Shown here: piece after piece, positions 3,640-49,141 of the stretch
How the letters are laid out: every line of letters begins with the position of its first letter
Numbering within the stretch: the first letter of the stretch is position 1
DNA from: Pseudomonas sp. NCCP-436
Lineage (GTDB): Bacteria > Pseudomonadota > Gammaproteobacteria > Pseudomonadales > Pseudomonadaceae
Reading direction: 5' to 3'
Assembly (NCBI RefSeq): GCF_019656335.1
Contig: NZ_BPLZ01000010.1
Span: 1-64,000, forward strand
DNA length: 64,000 bases
The notes under the pieces: generated by a model
Told to the model about the DNA's origin: nothing
Seen by the model: the letters and a program-made list of their open reading frames with translations, nothing else
Database searches by the model: none
Program-made: the position numbers and the translations under genes

Positions 3640-5277
3640 ATGATCAACCTGACCGTACGCACTCGAATCATCGTCAGCTTCATGCTGATCATTACCATCC
3701 TGGTGCTGCTGGTAGGTATTTCCCACACGCGCCTGACCGCTATAGAAAATGAGGCCACAAGCATACGCAACGATGCGATCGCCGGCCTAAACCAACTGAG
3801 CAAGGTGCAACACAATTGGGCGCGCCACATGCTCGATACCCGTCGCCTGCTGCTTCGCTACGGCGATGATGGAATCGAAAGTGCCACCGTGCTTGCTTCT
3901 CATCGCGAGGATCTGGCCACAAGCGAGAAGGGGCTGACCGAAAGCCTCGACGCCTTTCTGAAAACAATTACCGTAGAAGAAGAGCACAGGCTGGCAGAGC
4001 GACTGGACGAAGAAAAGCTGCTCTATCTGAGAAACCATGCCCAAATGCTGGAAATTCTCGAACATGCCGGCCTTGAAGAAGCCCGCGCCTTTAGCCGGGA
4101 TCATGTTTATACGGAATGGGAGACCGGCCAGAGCACGCTGGGAGAGCTCTTTGCTCTGGGCTCCGAACGTACCGACCGTGCCGCTGAGATGATTCGTGAG
4201 TCGGTAAACAAGCTGGAGATTGCTCTGATCATTGCGATCCTGCTTGCCATCGCCATCTCGGCCATTTGCGGCTGGCTGATGATGCGAGCCATCACTCAGC
4301 CGGTCGAGAGTATCGTCAATACCCTGAAGATTCTGGAAAACGGCGACCTCTCGGCCACCCTTGATCTGCATCGGCGCGACGAATTCAACGCCATCGAGAT
4401 AGGTTTCAACAGCATGGTCAGGGAGTTAAAGAACCTGGTCGGCAATGCCCAGCGTTCAGCCGTGCAGATGATCACGTCGGTAACCGAGATCGCCGCCACC
4501 TCCCGTCAGCAGCAGGCCACTGCCACAGAAACGGCTGCCACTACCACGGAGATAGGTGCCACCTCCAGGGAAATAGCAGCCACATCGCGTGATCTGGTAC
4601 GCACCATGGGAGAGGTATCAGACAATGCCGAGCAAACCTCCATTCTTGCCGGCACCGGTCAGCTCGGGCTGTCACGCATGGAGGAAATCATGCACCAGGT
4701 GATGGGGGCTGCCGACGTGGTCAACGGCAAGCTTTCGATCCTCAACGAGAAGGCCGGCAACATCAACCAAGTGGTCACCACCATCGTCAAGGTGGCCGAC
4801 CAGACCAACCTGCTTTCGCTCAATGCGGCCATCGAGGCGGAAAAGGCCGGTGAATACGGCAAGGGCTTCGCCGTGGTGGCCGTGGAGGTGCGCCGCCTTG
4901 CTGACCAGACCGCAGTAGCCACCTATGACATCGAGCAGATGGTGCGCGAAATCCAGTCTGCGGTCTCCGCCGGGGTGATGGGCATGGACAAGTTTTCCGA
5001 GGAGGTGCGCCGCGGTATCGGCGAGATGGCACAACTGGGCGACCAGTTGAGCCAGATCATCCAGCAGGTACAGGCACTGGCACCGCGCATCCAGATGGTC
5101 AATGAAGGCATGCAAGCCCAGTCAACCGGCGCCGAGCAAATCAATCAGGCACTGGTGCAACTGAGCGAAGCCAGCAGCCAGACGGTCGACTCGCTGCGTC
5201 AGGCCGGCAGTGCCATAGACGAGCTGAACCAGGTCGCCAATAACCTGCGCGTTGGCGTCAGTCGCTTCAAGGTCTGA
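3640..5277 (+). CDS. wspA: Wsp surface-sensing chemoreceptor WspA
   Basis: This 545-residue membrane chemoreceptor is the input of the Wsp system, which senses surface contact or envelope stress and raises c-di-GMP. It has a transmembrane helix at about residues 8-30, a periplasmic four-helix-type domain, a second helix near 193-216, a HAMP domain, and a long cytoplasmic signalling hairpin whose tip reads [18 protein letters not shown]. The AEKAGE variant of the usual AARAGE is, from memory, typical of WspA. No CheR-binding pentapeptide is present at the C-terminus. The ribosome-binding site is weak. wspB follows after 2 bp, so this is the first gene of a seven-gene operon. Confidence 0.93.
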
Positions 5278-5279
5278 AC

Positions 5280-5771
5280 ATGCCGGCCACCCGCAAGACC
5301 CAATCCGGCGAACTGCACCTGCAGTTCCGCCTCGGCCCGGACCGCTATGCCCTACCAGCCAGCGCCGTGGTCGAAGTGCTGCCCAGACGGCCGCTGAAGC
5401 AGTTGCCCGAGGCCCCCGAATGGGTTGCTGGACTGTTCGAGCATCGTGGCCGGATGATTCCGGTTATCGACCTGCCCTGCCGCCTGCTGGGTCAAGCAGC
5501 TCGCTCGCGCAGCAGCACACGCTTGGTACTGGTTCGCTTCGACGCCCGCCTGGGAGAAAATTCGCCTGTACTCGGCCTGCTGCTGGAGCAGGCAACCGAA
5601 ACCCTGCGCCTACATCCCGAACAATTCGTCGCTAACGGCCTGGAGGCAGTGCTGCCGAATTATCTGGGCCCGGTTCAGAAAAGCGCACAAGGTGTCATCC
5701 AGCGCATAGAAGTCGATCAGTTGCTCGACGATGCACTGCGCGCCATGTTGTTCCGTGCAGGCAAGGACTGA
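5280..5771 (+). CDS. wspB: Wsp coupling protein WspB (CheW-like)
   Basis: A 163-residue CheW-domain protein that couples receptor WspA to kinase WspE. The CheW fold is visible in FRLGPDRYALPASAVVEVLP near the N-terminus and in the HRGRMIPVIDL segment in the middle. It has a single domain, no membrane segment, and usual family length. It starts 2 bp after the wspA stop, consistent with translational coupling. It is one of two CheW-type proteins in the operon, the other being WspD. Confidence 0.9.
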   Translation: MPATRKTQSGELHLQFRLGPDRYALPASAVVEVLPRRPLKQLPEAPEWVAGLFEHRGRMIPVIDLPCRLLGQAARSRSSTRLVLVRFDARLGENSPVLGLLLEQATETLRLHPEQFVANGLEAVLPNYLGPVQKSAQGVIQRIEVDQLLDDALRAMLFRAGKD

Positions 5772-5775
5772 CGCC

Positions 5776-7020
5776 ATGCTTGAGCAGATCGAACGCCTGC
5801 TAAAGCAACGCATCGGCCTGGACGCCGAATCGGTTGGGCGCAGTGTCATTGAACGCGCCGTGCGTCAACGCATGAAGGCCATCGGTCAGCACGAAGCGGA
5901 AACTTACTGGTTGACCCTCTGTAGCTCGCCCGGAGAGCAGCAGGCCCTGGTAGAGACGGTCGTAGTGCCGGAAACCTGGTTTTTCCGCTACCCCGACGCA
6001 TTCCGGGCTCTGGCACGCCTGGCTCTGGAGCGGCACGCACAGTTGCAGGGGGCTCGCACCCTGCGCCTGATCAGCCTGCCGTGCTCCAGTGGCGAGGAAC
6101 CCTACTCCATGGCCATGACCCTGCTCGATGCCGGTTTTGCCCCGAGCCAGTTTCAGATCGACGCTCTGGATGTCAGTGAGAAGGTACTGGAGCATGCGCG
6201 CCGAGGCCTGTACGGACGCAACTCGTTCCGCGGCAATACCCTGGAGTTTCGCGAACGCTACTTCCGCGAGCAGGCAGGTGAATTTCTGCTCGACGAGCGT
6301 GTGCGCTCCTGCGTACGCCTGCGCGCCGGCAACCTGCTCGACAGCAATTTGCTCACGACAGAGCCACCTTACGACTTCATCTTCTGCCGTAACCTGCTGA
6401 TCTACTTTGACCGCGCCACACAGCTCCGCGCACTCCAACAGCTCAAGCGCCAGCTGCAACCCGAAGGCCTGCTATTCGTCGGTCCGGCCGAAGCCAGCCT
6501 GGCCAGCCAGAATGGTCTGCAAGCACTGGGGCACCAGCAGACCTTCGCCTTCCGTCTGTCACCCGCCACAGCAGCGGAACAACCGCCTCCCCGGGTACCG
6601 GACTGCCGCCCGCGCACGCGTGCCACGCCAGTGCCGCGTCTAGCTGCCACTGCCAAGCCACGAGCGAAGTCCCTTGAGGCCAAGCCCACACCCGCTCCGG
6701 CGAAGAGCAGCGATCTCTGGCAGGAAGTCGCCAACCTGGCCAATGCTGGTCGTAGTGCCGAAGCCCGCCTGCTCTGCGAACGTCAACTGCAACAGCAAGG
6801 GCCTTGTGCAACCGCATACTACTGGCTGGGGCTGCTCAGCGACGCAGACGGCAACGACGAACAGGCCAGCGCCTACTATCGTAAAGCGATCTATCTCCAA
6901 CCCCGGCACCGCGAAGCGCTGGCTCACCTGGCTACACACCTGGAAGCCCAGGGGGACATGGCCGGCGCCAAGCGCCTGTATCAGCGGGCGCAGACCGATG
7001 GAGTAGCGGACAATGACTGA
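5776..7020 (+). CDS. wspC: Wsp methyltransferase WspC (CheR with C-terminal TPR)
   Basis: This 414-residue protein is a CheR-type SAM-dependent methyltransferase that methylates glutamates of WspA. The N-terminal CheR helical domain is followed by the SAM-binding Rossmann domain (SLPCSSGEEPYSMAMTLL near residues 103-120, and DFIFCRNLLIYFD). A proline/alanine-rich linker then leads to tetratricopeptide-like repeats at the C-terminus (YYWLGLLSDADGND and EQASAYYRKAIYLQP), as in known WspC. The ATG at 5776 is preferred over upstream starts because it gives the CheR N-terminus MLEQIERLLKQ. Its end overlaps the wspD start by 8 bp. Confidence 0.92.
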   Translation: MLEQIERLLKQRIGLDAESVGRSVIERAVRQRMKAIGQHEAETYWLTLCSSPGEQQALVETVVVPETWFFRYPDAFRALARLALERHAQLQGARTLRLISLPCSSGEEPYSMAMTLLDAGFAPSQFQIDALDVSEKVLEHARRGLYGRNSFRGNTLEFRERYFREQAGEFLLDERVRSCVRLRAGNLLDSNLLTTEPPYDFIFCRNLLIYFDRATQLRALQQLKRQLQPEGLLFVGPAEASLASQNGLQALGHQQTFAFRLSPATAAEQPPPRVPDCRPRTRATPVPRLAATAKPRAKSLEAKPTPAPAKSSDLWQEVANLANAGRSAEARLLCERQLQQQGPCATAYYWLGLLSDADGNDEQASAYYRKAIYLQPRHREALAHLATHLEAQGDMAGAKRLYQRAQTDGVADND

Positions 7021-24777: not shown

Positions 24778-25010
24778 TTCAACTTTCCTCTAAATACAGT
24801 GGTTGCGAGGGTAGACAATGGTAAAGGATCGGCAGACAAAACGCCGCCATTCGCAGCAAAAGCCCTCTTTTTCATCGCAGACTCTTGCCACAAACGTGCC
24901 ATCACGACCAAAGCCTACTTGAAGGCACTTAACGCTCCGTCTTAGGGTCTAAAGCTCGCTGCAACCGCCAGACCGGTGCATATTTCCTCCAATCGTCACG
25001 GCTGATTCCC

Positions 25011-27551
25011 ATGACAACCCGAAATCTCTCGGAAATCTTCATCCAGACTCTGGAACAAGCCGTCGACAGCGTGGTGGTCATCGACGGCAGCAACCAGGTC
25101 ATGCTGTTCAATCGTGCGGCAGAGCAGCTCTGGGGCCTGAATCGCGAGCAGGTACTGAACCGCAACGTCAACCTACTGGTGCCCCCCGAGTTGCGCCAGC
25201 ATCACGACGGTTACATTGAGGCCAATCGCCTCACCGGGATCAACAAAATCGTCGGCAGTACCCGCACGCTGGAAATCCGGCGCCCCGACGGCAGCACACG
25301 CTGGGGGTCAATGTCCATCTCCAAGATCGAGACTGGCAGCGAGGTGCTCTACACGGCCTTTGTCAAGGACATCACCGAACAATACCTGCAGGACGAGAAA
25401 CTGCGCCTGCTCTCACTGGTGGTCGATCATACCGACAGCGCCATTCTCATAGTCGACGATCAATGGCGCATCCTCTACGTCAATGACGGTTTCACCCATA
25501 TGTTCGGCTATGGCCGCGAACATCTTGATACACGCTCGCCAATGGAGCTACTGACGCCTTATCTGACGCCAGCGCGTATCGTCGCCGTCCGCACCCAGTT
25601 ACTGGCCGGCAAACCCTACGCTAACGACGAGCTGATCTATTGCGCCAATGGCCAGCGCATCTGGTGTCACATGGCAGTCAACCCGATCATCGACAGTAGC
25701 GGTGCGATGAACAATGCCGTGGCGGTATTCACCGACATCACCCAGTCGAAGATGCACGAAGTACTCCAACAACGCATTCTCGAAGCGATGGCCCAAGAAG
25801 ACCCTCTGGAAACGCTGATGGACAAGGCCTGTCGCGAGGTCGAACGCATCGCTCCGGAGATCACAGCCTCCATCCTGCGCGTCAGCGAGAACGGCCAACT
25901 GCAGCCACTGGCTGGCCCCAATCTGCCACCCAGCTACTGCGCGGCTCTGGAGGGCGTGCAGATCAGTCCCCGATGCGGTTCCTGCGGCACGGCCGCCTAC
26001 TGCGGCGAAGCGGTACTGGTCGAAGATATCGAAAACGACCCGCTGTGGATCGACTACAAGGAACTTGCACTGCCAGCAGGGCTACGCGCCTGCTGGTCCA
26101 CACCGATCAAGGACAACCACGGCCGCGTACTCGGCACCTTCGCCTTCTACTACCGCGAACGCCGAGGCCCAAGCGCCTTTCATAAGCGCCTGCTGGATGT
26201 ACTGGTACACCTCTGTTCACTGGCCCTGCAACGCGAGGAAAACCGCGCCCAGATCCGTCGACTGGCCTTCTACGACAGCCTGACCCAACTGCCCAATCGC
26301 AGCCTGCTGCACGCCCAAGCCGATCTGCTGCTTGCCGAAGCAGGACGCAACACACAGACAGTGAGCGTACTGTTCGTCGATCTCGACCGCTTCAAGCAGG
26401 TCAACGACTCCCTCGGCCACCACGCTGGCGACGAACTGCTGCGCCTGGTTGCCAAGCGCCTGAGTGAAAACCGCCGGGCCGATGACATCGTCGGCCGACT
26501 GTCCGGTGATGAATTCGTTTTAGTACTGCCGCGCTGTGGCAACCAGCAGATTGCCGAGACGATCGAGCAACTGCGCCATAACCTCAGCCAACCCTGCCGG
26601 ATTTCCGGAGTAACACTGTGCCCGTCGGCCAGCATCGGCATTGCCATGTTTCCCACAGATGGCCACGACATGGGCACGCTGATTCAGCGTGCCGACATGG
26701 CCATGTATCAGGCCAAGAACACCGGTCCCGGCCGCTACAGCTTCTTCAGGCATGAGTTGAACCAGTTGGCGCAGGAGCGTATGACCCTAGAAAGCGCTTT
26801 TCGCGAAGCCCTTGAGCAGGGTCAACTGAGTCTTAACTACCACCCACAGGTACGCATGGACGACGGCCGCCTGCACGGGCTCGAAGCCCTGGCGCGCTGG
26901 CACCACCCGCAGCTGGGCGAGATTTCTCCGGAGCGCTTCATCCCGCTGAGCGAGGAGTGCGGCCTGATCAACCAGTTCGGTCTGTGGGCCGTGCGCGAAG
27001 TCTGCCGCCAGTTGGCTCAATGGCGACGCAAGGGGCTATCGATCCCTGCTGTTTCGGTAAACCTCTCGCCGACCAACTTTCACAATCTCGATCTGCCGGA
27101 AACGATCGCCACAATCCTCAGAGAGAACCAATTGCAACCGGATGACCTGATCCTGGAGATCACCGAAAGCGTGCTGCTGGATAACAATCCCCGTACGCTG
27201 AATATCCTCGATGAAATACATAGCCACGGCATCCGGATGTCCATGGACGATTTCGGCACCGGCTACTCCAGCCTCAGCTACCTGCGCCGCCTGCCGGTAC
27301 AGGAACTCAAGCTCGATCGCAGCTTCGTCCTCGACCTGGAACAGGACACCACCAACCAGGCGCTGGCAGAAGCGGTGATCCGCCTCGGCGAGAGCCTGAG
27401 CCTGACTGTTGTCGCCGAAGGCGTGGAAACCGCCGCTCAGCACGAAATCCTCCGCCAGCAGGGCTACCATGTGGGCCAGGGCTACCTGTTCTCCCAGCCG
27501 CTCTCGAGCGCCGATCTGGAGGTTTGGCTGCAAAATCTCAGCCAAGCCTGA
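25011..27551 (+). CDS. DosP-like PAS-PAS-GAF-GGDEF-EAL c-di-GMP protein with FixL-type haem PAS
   Basis: This 846-residue soluble protein has PAS (about 8-125), PAS (about 133-250), GAF (about 265-405), GGDEF (about 415-575) and EAL (about 590-840) domains, the order of E. coli DosP. The first PAS has LRQHHDGYI with His65 at the place of the haem-ligating histidine of FixL and DosP. Arg85 in KIVGSTRTLEI lies 20 residues later, the spacing of FixL His200 to Arg220. The cyclase motif is SGDEF (498-502) with an I-site R489-A-D-D492; the EAL signature (625-627) and DDFGTGYSSL are intact. It is probably an oxygen- or redox-gas-responsive phosphodiesterase, possibly with cyclase activity. Its end overlaps the convergent GNAT gene by 14 bp. 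Confidence 0.9.
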   Translation: MTTRNLSEIFIQTLEQAVDSVVVIDGSNQVMLFNRAAEQLWGLNREQVLNRNVNLLVPPELRQHHDGYIEANRLTGINKIVGSTRTLEIRRPDGSTRWGSMSISKIETGSEVLYTAFVKDITEQYLQDEKLRLLSLVVDHTDSAILIVDDQWRILYVNDGFTHMFGYGREHLDTRSPMELLTPYLTPARIVAVRTQLLAGKPYANDELIYCANGQRIWCHMAVNPIIDSSGAMNNAVAVFTDITQSKMHEVLQQRILEAMAQEDPLETLMDKACREVERIAPEITASILRVSENGQLQPLAGPNLPPSYCAALEGVQISPRCGSCGTAAYCGEAVLVEDIENDPLWIDYKELALPAGLRACWSTPIKDNHGRVLGTFAFYYRERRGPSAFHKRLLDVLVHLCSLALQREENRAQIRRLAFYDSLTQLPNRSLLHAQADLLLAEAGRNTQTVSVLFVDLDRFKQVNDSLGHHAGDELLRLVAKRLSENRRADDIVGRLSGDEFVLVLPRCGNQQIAETIEQLRHNLSQPCRISGVTLCPSASIGIAMFPTDGHDMGTLIQRADMAMYQAKNTGPGRYSFFRHELNQLAQERMTLESAFREALEQGQLSLNYHPQVRMDDGRLHGLEALARWHHPQLGEISPERFIPLSEECGLINQFGLWAVREVCRQLAQWRRKGLSIPAVSVNLSPTNFHNLDLPETIATILRENQLQPDDLILEITESVLLDNNPRTLNILDEIHSHGIRMSMDDFGTGYSSLSYLRRLPVQELKLDRSFVLDLEQDTTNQALAEAVIRLGESLSLTVVAEGVETAAQHEILRQQGYHVGQGYLFSQPLSSADLEVWLQNLSQA

Positions 27552-44944: not shown

Positions 44945-47900
44945 GTGTCGAGCCCCCCGCAACTCCCCTCCTTTTCTCCGGGCGAGCCTCAACCGCCCAG
45001 CCGCCGTGAACTACTGCGACGGCTGCTGATAGTGCTGGTACTGGTCATCCTGGGTCTGCTGGCCTGGCAACTGAGTGGGCAATATCGTCAACTGCTCGAC
45101 ACCCGCCAGCAGCTAGCTCGCAGCTACAGCGAACAACTGGCACGCCATCTTGAGCTGAACATGCGCCTGAAGGCCAAATCCGGCCTGGCCGTACTGCAGA
45201 ATAACGACAGCACCACGATTATCCCGGCACTCAGAGGGCTGTTTCCCGGCCTCGAAAGCCTGGTGAACTTTGACAGCCGCGGCAGGCTGGTCGACGACTC
45301 GGCACGCGGCACAGAAGATCTTCTGCTCATCCGCGAGTTACTGCCGCGCGATGTGCCCTACCATTTCGCCTTCAATCCTTACGACAACGACCGACTTTAC
45401 CTGCTGCTGCGCCTGGACGACGGTAGCAGACGGGTGCTGCGCCTGCAGGTGAGCGTCCTGCGCGAGTGGCTGCGCGAGCAGCACACCGGCGAGCATCGCT
45501 GGCTGCTGGAAGACATACCAAGCGGCCAGGTGATTGCTCGCGCCGATGCAGCGCTGCCAGCAGATGTCGGTTTTCGGGCACCTGCTTCGGAAGAACTGGC
45601 GCAGAGCCTGCACCTGATTCCGCTAGAGGGAAGCGACTGGCAACTGCGCGCCCTGTTCGACGCCAATGCAGTTCGTCAGCAACTGGCAGGTTCTCTGAGC
45701 GGCAAGTTCCTGCTTTTTGCACTCTGCAGCCTACTGATCCTGCTCGTACTGCACGGTCTGCAACGTGAGCAACGCCGCCTGCAGCGGCTGAACAGTGAAA
45801 CCCGGCGCTCCCTGCGCCAGGCCGCCACAGCGCTGGCAGCAGTTGAGGAGCGCATTTTAGTGACTCAGGCCGACGGCCGGCTGCGCTACCTCAATCCCCA
45901 GGCAGAAGCACTGTTCGGCCTCAGCAGCCTGGCCGCCTGGGATCTGCACCTGTCGGATCTTATTCCGGATCTTGACCCACAACTGCTCAGCAATGCGGAC
46001 AACGTCGAAGCAGGCTCAAAACTGGTGCAAGTCACACAGAACAGCATTTCCCGCCTGTTTGCCGTCACCCGTAGAGATATCAGCGGCTTCGACTCTCAGG
46101 TCGGCTATGTCTGGGTATTGCGCGACGTCACCGACGAGCAACAGGCGATGCGCGTGCTGCAGGAGACCCGCCGGCGCTATCAGGACATTTTCGAAGGCAC
46201 CGGCGTGGCCTTGTGCGTACTCGACCTCGCCGGACTGCGCGACCTGCTGTTGCAGCATAGACTGCGCGACTCAGCCGGCCTGGCGCGCTGGATGGCCACC
46301 GACGGCAGCCACCTGCAACTGGTACAGGAGCGGATCCGCATCACCGAGGCCAATCAGGTGGCGCTCAACCTGCTGGGAGTGAAATCCACGGATCAGGCCT
46401 GGCAGCAACTACTCGACAACGGCCCGCAGCGCAGCGACGACCTGTGCCGACGCTTGGCCATGGCCGTACTGGAAGGCCCCAATCTGGTGGAGCTGGAAAC
46501 CCAACTTATCACCGCCCAAGGCCTGCAGCGCCATGTCTGGCTGGTACTGCGCCTGCCGGAAATGATCGAAGACTACCAGGCCGTCACTTTAAGCATCAGC
46601 GACATTACCAGCCGCAAACACATCGAGCTGTCACTGGCCGAGCGCGAGCGCTTCTGGTCCGAGGTGGTTCGCTCGGTACCAGATCTGCTTTACGTACATG
46701 ACATACAAAATCGCCGACTGCTGTTCAGCAATCACAGCCTCGGCCTGCAATTGGGCTACAGCAAAGCCGAACTTAAGGCCATGCCTGGCGAGTTCTGGGT
46801 CCAGGTGCTGCACCCGGACGACAGCGAGTACTACTGGCGTATCCGTAACCTGCAGCAGGTGATCGGCGACGGCCTGCTGCTGGAGTCAACGTTGCGCTGG
46901 CGTCACCGCAACGGTCAGTGGCGCTGGTTCAGCATCCGTGAGCAGGCTCTGGCTCGTGACGAACATGGCAGGGTCAGTCGCCTGATCGGCGTGGCCAAGG
47001 ACATCACCGAACAGATCCAGCGCAATCAGTCGCTACACGAGAGCGAACAGCGCTACCGCCTGCTGGCAGAGAGCATCAGCGACGTGATTTTCTCCACTGA
47101 CAGCAGCCTGACGCTCAATTACGTAAGCCCCTCGGTGCAACCGGTGCTGGGCTATTCGGTGCAATGGATCATGAGTGGTGGCCTTGACAACCTTCCGGCC
47201 AATCCGCAGCAGCTCGACAGCCTGAAGCATAAGCTCGATCTGATTCGCGATGCGCTGAATGACCGCAATCGCCTGCAGCGCCTGCGTGACGAGTTGCCGG
47301 ATCAACTGTTCGTACTCGACTGTCTGCGCGCCGACGGCCACAAGATCCCGATAGAACTGCGCCTGGTTCTGATGTGGGACGAAAACGGTCATTTTGAGGG
47401 GCTACTCGGTGTCGGCCGCGACATCAGTCAACAACGCCGTGCGGAAAAGGATCTGCGCATGGCCGCCACGGTATTCGAACACTCTACAGCAGCAATCCTT
47501 GTCACCGATCCGGCCGGTTATATCGTGCAGGTCAACAACGCTTTCAGTCGTGTCACCGGCTATTCCGCTGCCCAGGTGCTCGACCAGCAACCGGCCATGC
47601 TCACCGCCGATCGCCAGCAGGCCAGCCACCTGCAGTACATTCTTTCCCAACTCAGCCAGCACGGCAGCTGGGAAGGTGAGGTCTGGCTCAAGCGTCACGA
47701 CGGCGAGCCCTTCCCCGCCTGGGTCGGCATCACCGCCGTACACGACGAAGAAGGCGATCTGGTCAGCTACGTCAGCTTCTTCAGCGATATCAGCGAGCGC
47801 AAGGCCAGCGAACAGCGTATCCACCGCCTGGCCTATTACGATGCCCTGACCCATCTGCCCAACCGTACGCTGTTCCAGGACCGACTGCACAGTGCCTTGC

Positions 47901-49141
47901 AGTATGCCGAGCGCCACGGCCAGTGGGTGGTACTGATGTTCCTTGACCTCGACCGCTTCAAGCCGATCAACGACTCCCTGGGTCATGCTGCTGGCGACCA
48001 CATGCTCAAAGACGTAGCCGTCCGTCTATCCACCTGCGTCGGCGGTGAAGACACGGTGGCACGCATGGGCGGCGATGAATTTACCCTGCTGCTGCAGCCC
48101 CAAGCCAAACGCGAGAGCGCGCTGAATCGCGCCATCCACGTGGCCGAGCAGATTCTCTCCAGCCTGGCCTGCCCCTTCATCCTCGAGGGCCGCGAGTTTT
48201 TCGTCAGTGCCAGTATCGGCATTGCTCTCGCACCGCAAGACGGCGATGAACTCAGTCAGCTGATGAAAAATGCCGACACCGCCATGTATCACGCCAAGGA
48301 GCGCGGCAAGAACAACTTTCAGTTCTATCAGGCGGACATGAACGCCCGAGCGCTGGAGCGCCTGGAACTGGAAAGTGACCTGCGTCATGCCCTGGAGCAG
48401 AGCCAGTTCATACTTCACTACCAGCCGCAGTTCTCAGGCGACGGGCAGCGCCTGACTGGCGTCGAAGCGTTGCTGCGCTGGGATCACCCAACCCGCGGCC
48501 TGGTGCCACCTGGCGATTTCATTCCAGTGCTGGAAGAACTGGGTCTGGTGGTGCAAGTTGGCGAATGGGTGCTGGAAGAGGCTTGCCGCCAGATTCACCG
48601 CTGGCACGCGGCGAAGATCCGCATCCCGAAGGTGGCGGTCAACCTCTCCGCCCGCCAGTTCTCCGAAGGCAATCTGAGTACGGCCATCGCCGCCATCATC
48701 GAACGCACGGGCATACCGCCGGCCTGCCTGGAGGTCGAGCTGACCGAAAGCATCCTGATGCGTGACGTTTCCAGCGCCATGCAGACATTGGCCGATCTCA
48801 AACGCCTCGGCCTGTGCATCGCGGTTGACGACTTCGGTACCGGCTATTCATCGCTGAACTACCTCAAGCAGTTCCCCATCGACGTGCTGAAGATCGATCG
48901 CAGCTTCGTCGATGGACTGCCCGAAGGCGAGCAGGATGCACAGATCGCCCGCGCCATTATTGCCATGGCCCACAGTTTGAATATGGCGGTGATTGCCGAA
49001 GGAGTGGAAACCCAGGAACAACTGGATTTCCTGCGCGAGCATGACTGCGACGAAGTACAAGGCTACCTGCTCGGACGGCCAATGCTGGCTGGGCAGATCA
49101 GCGCGGCGTTCAGCGGCAAGGCGCTGTTCGAGCTGACCTAG
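44945..49141 (+). CDS. morA: Membrane-bound multi-PAS GGDEF-EAL protein MorA
   Basis: A 1398-residue inner-membrane c-di-GMP enzyme. A helix at about residues 24-44 and another near 250-268 flank a periplasmic sensor region. About five PAS domains follow (starting near 290, 410, 570, 700 and 838), then GGDEF with an intact MGGDEF motif, and EAL with intact GVEALLRWDHP and DDFGTGYSSL. MorA controls flagellar development, biofilm and protease secretion in Pseudomonas. The pairing with glyA downstream matches, from memory, PA4601-PA4602. The start is a GTG at 44945 with only a weak ribosome-binding site. Confidence 0.9.
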   Translation: MSSPPQLPSFSPGEPQPPSRRELLRRLLIVLVLVILGLLAWQLSGQYRQLLDTRQQLARSYSEQLARHLELNMRLKAKSGLAVLQNNDSTTIIPALRGLFPGLESLVNFDSRGRLVDDSARGTEDLLLIRELLPRDVPYHFAFNPYDNDRLYLLLRLDDGSRRVLRLQVSVLREWLREQHTGEHRWLLEDIPSGQVIARADAALPADVGFRAPASEELAQSLHLIPLEGSDWQLRALFDANAVRQQLAGSLSGKFLLFALCSLLILLVLHGLQREQRRLQRLNSETRRSLRQAATALAAVEERILVTQADGRLRYLNPQAEALFGLSSLAAWDLHLSDLIPDLDPQLLSNADNVEAGSKLVQVTQNSISRLFAVTRRDISGFDSQVGYVWVLRDVTDEQQAMRVLQETRRRYQDIFEGTGVALCVLDLAGLRDLLLQHRLRDSAGLARWMATDGSHLQLVQERIRITEANQVALNLLGVKSTDQAWQQLLDNGPQRSDDLCRRLAMAVLEGPNLVELETQLITAQGLQRHVWLVLRLPEMIEDYQAVTLSISDITSRKHIELSLAERERFWSEVVRSVPDLLYVHDIQNRRLLFSNHSLGLQLGYSKAELKAMPGEFWVQVLHPDDSEYYWRIRNLQQVIGDGLLLESTLRWRHRNGQWRWFSIREQALARDEHGRVSRLIGVAKDITEQIQRNQSLHESEQRYRLLAESISDVIFSTDSSLTLNYVSPSVQPVLGYSVQWIMSGGLDNLPANPQQLDSLKHKLDLIRDALNDRNRLQRLRDELPDQLFVLDCLRADGHKIPIELRLVLMWDENGHFEGLLGVGRDISQQRRAEKDLRMAATVFEHSTAAILVTDPAGYIVQVNNAFSRVTGYSAAQVLDQQPAMLTADRQQASHLQYILSQLSQHGSWEGEVWLKRHDGEPFPAWVGITAVHDEEGDLVSYVSFFSDISERKASEQRIHRLAYYDALTHLPNRTLFQDRLHSALQYAERHGQWVVLMFLDLDRFKPINDSLGHAAGDHMLKDVAVRLSTCVGGEDTVARMGGDEFTLLLQPQAKRESALNRAIHVAEQILSSLACPFILEGREFFVSASIGIALAPQDGDELSQLMKNADTAMYHAKERGKNNFQFYQADMNARALERLELESDLRHALEQSQFILHYQPQFSGDGQRLTGVEALLRWDHPTRGLVPPGDFIPVLEELGLVVQVGEWVLEEACRQIHRWHAAKIRIPKVAVNLSARQFSEGNLSTAIAAIIERTGIPPACLEVELTESILMRDVSSAMQTLADLKRLGLCIAVDDFGTGYSSLNYLKQFPIDVLKIDRSFVDGLPEGEQDAQIARAIIAMAHSLNMAVIAEGVETQEQLDFLREHDCDEVQGYLLGRPMLAGQISAAFSGKALFELT

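Follow-up and report, generated by a model that had tools for sequence, protein, structure and literature searches.

We identified, within the 64,000-nucleotide stretch of Pseudomonas sp. NCCP-436 DNA that was analysed (the window), a gene that with a probability of about 0.8 codes for a soluble gas sensor that uses haem and belongs to the PDEA/DosP family, with hydrolysis of c-di-GMP as its output and, by analogy with AxPDEA1, activity in the deoxy state. The protein is an ordinary member of this known family; it does not represent a novel fusion of two sensor types. It is most likely a haem-O2-regulated phosphodiesterase, probably at its most active when deoxy, as the behaviour of AxPDEA1 would suggest.

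Pfam resolves the protein as PAS-PAS-GAF-GGDEF-EAL (Table 1) and reports PAS, GAF, GGDEF and EAL domains only, with no kinase domain. The earlier note had given the remaining order as PAS-GAF-GGDEF-EAL, that of E. coli DosP; E. coli DosP itself has no GAF domain by Pfam at E values up to 0.01. The top NCBIfam match is DosP (NF008467), with a score of 766 bits where the strict equivalog demands 857; a Komagataeibacter PDEA-type protein likewise falls under this cut-off at 822 bits. The Met distal ligand at His+18 that characterises the strict DosP equivalog is absent, this position being occupied by Ser83. All 12 EAL positions checked in a 57-row full-length alignment, which we take to be the catalytic ones, are intact in the window protein. 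The proposal that a haem-PAS sits on a c-di-GMP enzyme of the GGDEF-EAL type has held up, as the top PDB matches of the first PAS (PAS1) are haem-PAS domains by both sequence and fold and the EAL domain is intact.

Table 1. Coordinates of the sensor gene and its features within the window
Feature	Position	Strand	Assignment	Evidence
ORF, 846 aa, ATG start	25011..27551	+	DosP/PDEA-like haem-PAS c-di-GMP enzyme	ORF call, Pfam, NCBIfam, Foldseek
PAS1, residues 1-136	25011..25418	+	predicted haem-binding sensor	PDB sequence and fold matches
His65 codon	25203..25205	+	predicted proximal haem ligand (DosP His77, FixL His200)	alignments, structural alignment
Ser83 codon	25257..25259	+	position of DosP Met95 / FixL Ile218	alignments, structural alignment
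Arg85 codon	25263..25265	+	predicted O2 contact (DosP Arg97, FixL Arg220)	alignments, structural alignment
PAS2, residues 143-245	25437..25745	+	probable signal relay	PF13426
GAF, residues 265-407	25803..26231	+		PF13185, 63.6 bits
GGDEF, residues 419-572	26265..26726	+	SGDEF with RxxD upstream	Pfam, alignment
EAL, residues 596-830	26796..27500	+	phosphodiesterase domain, catalytic residues intact	Pfam, alignment

In PAS1 the putative haem ligand His65 (the second H of HHDGYI) is followed exactly 20 positions later by the putative gas contact Arg85 (in VGSTRT), and the place of DosP Met95 holds no Met, both as noted earlier. Five of the genome's 30 PAS domains (33 PAS_9 matches, 30 of them with loci) contain an H-x19-R pair somewhere, PAS1 being one of the five, and PAS2 has none; by itself this spacing is weak evidence. 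By our reading of the positions, the window pair appears to be the only one of the five placed in the F helix and G strand. The pair nevertheless goes beyond chance because the homologous positions are conserved: of 98 distinct related domains including that of the window (116 rows before identical ones were dropped), 89 have both His and Arg, and neither residue varies among 17 hand-chosen rows aligned over their full length (17/17). The 98 domains were drawn by similarity to the window, and their counts should not be read as a census. The nearest named relatives, from P. alcaligenes and P. guineae, keep His, Ser and Arg as well. Among the 89 domains the +18 position holds Thr (67), Ser (12), Val (4), Ala (3), Gly (1), Met (1) or Ile (1). 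A second, class-wide draw centred on E. coli gave matches in 58 of 369 genomes; in the best 30 loci, which comprise 35 domains with that of the window, His is present in 35/35, Arg at +20 in 31/35 and Ile at +18 in 22/35. Judged from these alignments, the His/Arg spacing is a general feature of such PAS domains and no mark of FixL. Met occupies +18 in only one of the 57 full-length rows (window included), that of E. coli DosP, so that in this sample a Met-free pocket, as predicted from the aligned residues, is the usual form and E. coli Met95 the exception. Tandem arrays of two to four PAS domains that each carry this conserved His were also observed (L029, L030, L062, L065, L064, L066, L067, L068, L100, L148 and L150), for example four domains in the 604-aa frames of L029 and L030; Arg at +20 is kept in all of these loci except L150, and L100, on a Marinobacter plasmid, adjoins a chemotaxis gene.

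In the mechanism that we propose, PAS1 would bind haem b through His65, and O2, probably also CO or NO, would bind on an open distal side and be held there by Arg85. As Ser83 stands where DosP has Met95, a five-coordinate ferrous haem is expected. Arg85 and a network of haem propionate and N72 would move the FG loop, and PAS2 and GAF would then relay the signal to GGDEF and EAL. The predicted output is c-di-GMP hydrolysis by EAL, and the GGDEF domain (SGDEF) may have a regulatory role or some weak activity; if the deoxy form is the active one, as in AxPDEA1, low O2 would lower c-di-GMP. Met101, at the place of DosP Phe113, was considered as an alternative distal ligand. This reading is not favoured on the aligned residues because the position takes Leu about as often as Met (43 Leu and 41 Met among the 89 domains).

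The sign of the O2 effect is uncertain because E. coli DosP and AxPDEA1 respond oppositely. Activation by O2, of the kind known from E. coli DosP, might take place via Arg85 or the FG loop despite the missing distal Met, and both the full-length homology to DosP (34.3% identity over 792 alignment columns) and the DosP-like residues W41, N72 and Y114 agree with such a switch. However, DosP is described as unlocked by the displacement of Met95 by O2, and its five-coordinate M95A and M95L variants as binding O2 more tightly and being highly active with no further enhancement by O2 (PMC4263535). That switch cannot operate in the window protein because Ser83 replaces Met95; another is therefore needed, for which the PDEA type, active when deoxy, is the nearest precedent. 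PAS1 is also nearer to a Komagataeibacter PDEA-type protein (47% identity) than to E. coli DosP (39%), and we regard activation by O2 as possible but rather unlikely.

The GGDEF domain raises the further idea of a bifunctional O2 switch, in which one haem would toggle between making and breaking c-di-GMP and the genus would repeatedly have shed the haem from an enzyme that stayed bifunctional. This is conceivable because a near-intact SGDEF motif and the RxxD inhibition site are kept beside an intact EAL, unlike the EGASF of the E. coli plasmid copy of DosP (L098) and the GGDQF, GGDEY or GANEF of Acetobacteraceae PDEA-type rows; we nonetheless consider it improbable.

We observed departures from the haem site in 9 of the 98 related domains. 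Eight lack the His, all of them from genomes of the same genus, Pseudomonas, and P. thermotolerans (L046) has Leu for Arg. The homologues concerned are L178-L183, L144, L145 and L046; besides these, the His/Arg pair is not intact in the full-length alignment of L006 and L008, two full-length relatives outside the PAS1 search set. Seven of the nine (L178-L183 and L145) were read as whole genes and all keep SGDEF and 12/12 EAL residues; L178, L179, L180, L181, L182 and L183 are the same loci as L031, L032, L035, L033, L034 and L027, respectively, and the frame of L178 is shorter (764 aa). L145 is 38% identical to the window protein in PAS1, 70% in the remainder and 65% overall. Parsimony requires six state changes on a PAS1 tree built without the motif columns, which is poorly resolved. 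As these homologues lost the site and kept the enzyme, enzymes of this type can do without haem in Pseudomonas; the repeated loss of haem is the better lead. The eight His-less domains of the genus also lend some credit to a PAS1 that would no longer bind haem in the window protein and would serve as a dimerisation module instead. Against this, PAS1 still has His and Arg together with the FG-loop motif, features that the His-less relatives lost wholly or in part, and the P. alcaligenes and P. guineae proteins retain the same His/Ser/Arg set, leaving such a loss very unlikely here.

The affiliation of PAS1 with DosP and PDEA rather than FixL is seen in sequence, tree and subtype residues. Searched against PDB sequences, PAS1 matches DosP (1v9y, E 1.3e-25) ahead of FixL (2cmn, E 4.1e-21). 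Its AlphaFold2 model (44 sequences) has a pLDDT of 88.4, and residues 78-83 fall below 50 in the full-length model. The fold comparison proposed in the earlier note placed haem-PAS structures on top and gave no preference for FixL over DosP: in VIA-align, FixL 1dp8 (Z 17.5) and DosP 1vb6 (Z 17.2) tie within 1 Z, and among the matches listed the haem-PAS structures (Z 15.0-17.5, the lowest being the haem-PAS FG214 at Z 15.0) outrank all other PAS entries, the best of which reaches Z 13.9. Gapless alignments pair residues 18-135 with 153-270 of FixL 1dp8 and residues 8-136 with 20-148 of DosP 9cmf, and His65, Ser83 and Arg85 superpose on FixL 200, 218 and 220 and equally on DosP 77, 95 and 97. 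For the full-length model the top Foldseek match is DosP 9cmf (834 columns, 33% identity), with a TM of 0.35-0.38 and an rmsd of 22, values that reflect the lack of a defined placement of the domains relative to each other in this model (pTM 0.42).

In the PAS1 tree (133 columns, few for its 96 rows) three FixL-type rows are split from the other 93 with an SH-aLRT of 100, and the window falls in a set of eight rows (support 95) to which P. alcaligenes, P. guineae and congeneric genomes also belong. As far as this alignment resolves it, PAS1 lies on the PDEA/DosP side, apart from FixL; E. coli DosP sits on a long branch and its exact sister group is not claimed. PAS1 has W41, N72, R73 and Y114 where DosP has W53, N84, R85 and Y126, and S. 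meliloti FixL has F, Y, M and F at these positions and Ile at +18. DosP W53, N84 and Y126 have been tied to haem contacts and signalling (PMC4263535). The combination of W41, N72 and R73 with a +18 residue other than Met is that of the PDEA subtype. The counterparts of FixL His200 and Arg220 are present yet not FixL-specific, and the window protein has neither Ile at +18 nor a histidine-kinase output.

A FixL-type sensor recombined onto a DosP output as a novel combination, as the earlier note had it, would be in keeping with the FixL entries heading the fold list and with I80 and I103, counterparts of the FixL distal hydrophobics that we take to be I215 and I238, but we reject it as extremely improbable: E. 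coli DosP (L098) has the same His/Arg spacing, which hence does not point to FixL, DosP is the top sequence match, FixL occupies a separate branch and its Ile at +18 is Ser in PAS1. Nor is Met-free ligand chemistry joined to a DosP output new, since PDEA-type enzymes have it already. The motif observation was sound and had been over-read as FixL-type.

The gene stands alone; thioesterase and HAD genes precede it on the other strand, and downstream of it lies a convergent GNAT (acetyltransferase) gene that overlaps its end, followed by a deacetylase-like gene. Of 18 loci compared, with up to 4 kb of flank each, P. alcaligenes L038 shows the same setting, P. guineae L040 and the MAG locus L039 show it without the GNAT gene, and the remaining 15 did not show it. 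The synteny with P. alcaligenes and P. guineae also points to Pseudomonas as the genus. No Anr/FNR site (TTGATN4ATCAA, up to two mismatches) was found in the upstream stretch 24778-25010, from which nothing is concluded. By our tally, 29 of the 398 genomes drawn from the genus, including the window's own, have a best PAS1 match at E ≤1e-20; they include a FixL-like one (G325), two with tandem PAS (G301 and G312) and several haem-less ones. In Pseudomonas botevensis (L056) two DosP-like coding stretches (541-2691 and 4001-6505) lie close together on opposite strands. The window holds a second multi-PAS GGDEF-EAL protein of 1398 aa (44945-49141, + strand). The same genome also encodes a globin-PAS-GGDEF-EAL protein (L146, G000:C1:16931-17374) and a globin-GGDEF protein with a GGEEF motif (L147, 242598-243005); because of these globin proteins, c-di-GMP is probably linked to O2 through several haem proteins.

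The gene adds a Pseudomonas branch to the haem-PAS phosphodiesterases, and Met95, the textbook switch of E. coli DosP, is unusual in the sample to which it belongs. As the sign of the O2 response is opposite in DosP and AxPDEA1, a Met-free enzyme with natural haem-less relatives is a good system for what sets it.

Of the known systems, the haem PAS of FixL from S. meliloti and B. japonicum shares with PAS1 the PAS fold and the His and Arg positions, and its output is described as a histidine kinase (PMC4263535). PA0285 of P. aeruginosa is a PAS-PAS-GGDEF-EAL hybrid from the same genus, which according to PMC10874727 has transmembrane domains and lacks residues that could coordinate haem; the fragments tested there did not bind haem. 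P. putida PP2258 was considered as the same protein and dropped; the relevant part of PMC6093933 mentions only a PAS of unstated cofactor. Among the open-licence papers listed, none stood out as dealing with a haem-PAS homologue of DosP/PDEA from Pseudomonas; PMC10904736 concerns iron and c-di-GMP in P. aeruginosa and names DosP, and PMC13141831 concerns O2 and c-di-GMP in Kosakonia.

E. coli DosP (EcDOS) is the best solved-structure match over the full length, with a similar domain order, His77/Arg97, counterparts of W53, N84 and Y126 and an intact EAL; the window protein differs in having no Met95 counterpart and a clear Pfam GAF. The PDEA/DosP sensor family has been described since 2001, AxPDEA1 being a haem-PAS phosphodiesterase inhibited by O2 (Chang 2001, as cited in PMC4263535, PMC4646962 and PMC6559022) whose activity is raised by O2 dissociation (PMC4263535). 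The PDEA-type proteins of Komagataeibacter, Novacetimonas and Gluconacetobacter, of which AxPDEA1 is the characterised member, were compared through Acetobacteraceae loci, none of them matched to AxPDEA1 itself. In three of these loci (L072, L086 and L088) the gene is followed immediately, in the same orientation, by one for a GGDEF-EAL protein, the layout seen in pdeA-dgc operons; a motif scan found no such gene in that place in the other Acetobacteraceae loci within the stretches examined. This arrangement, which the stand-alone window gene lacks, is a trait of cdg operons and not of every PDEA-type gene. The PDEA-type proteins are about 39-42% identical to the window protein over the full length and share with it the haem-PAS, the second PAS, GGDEF and EAL, with a GAF-like region that is weak (Komagataeibacter L075, Pfam E up to 0.01); they have His, Arg at +20 and, at +18, Thr and not Met, where the window protein has Ser.
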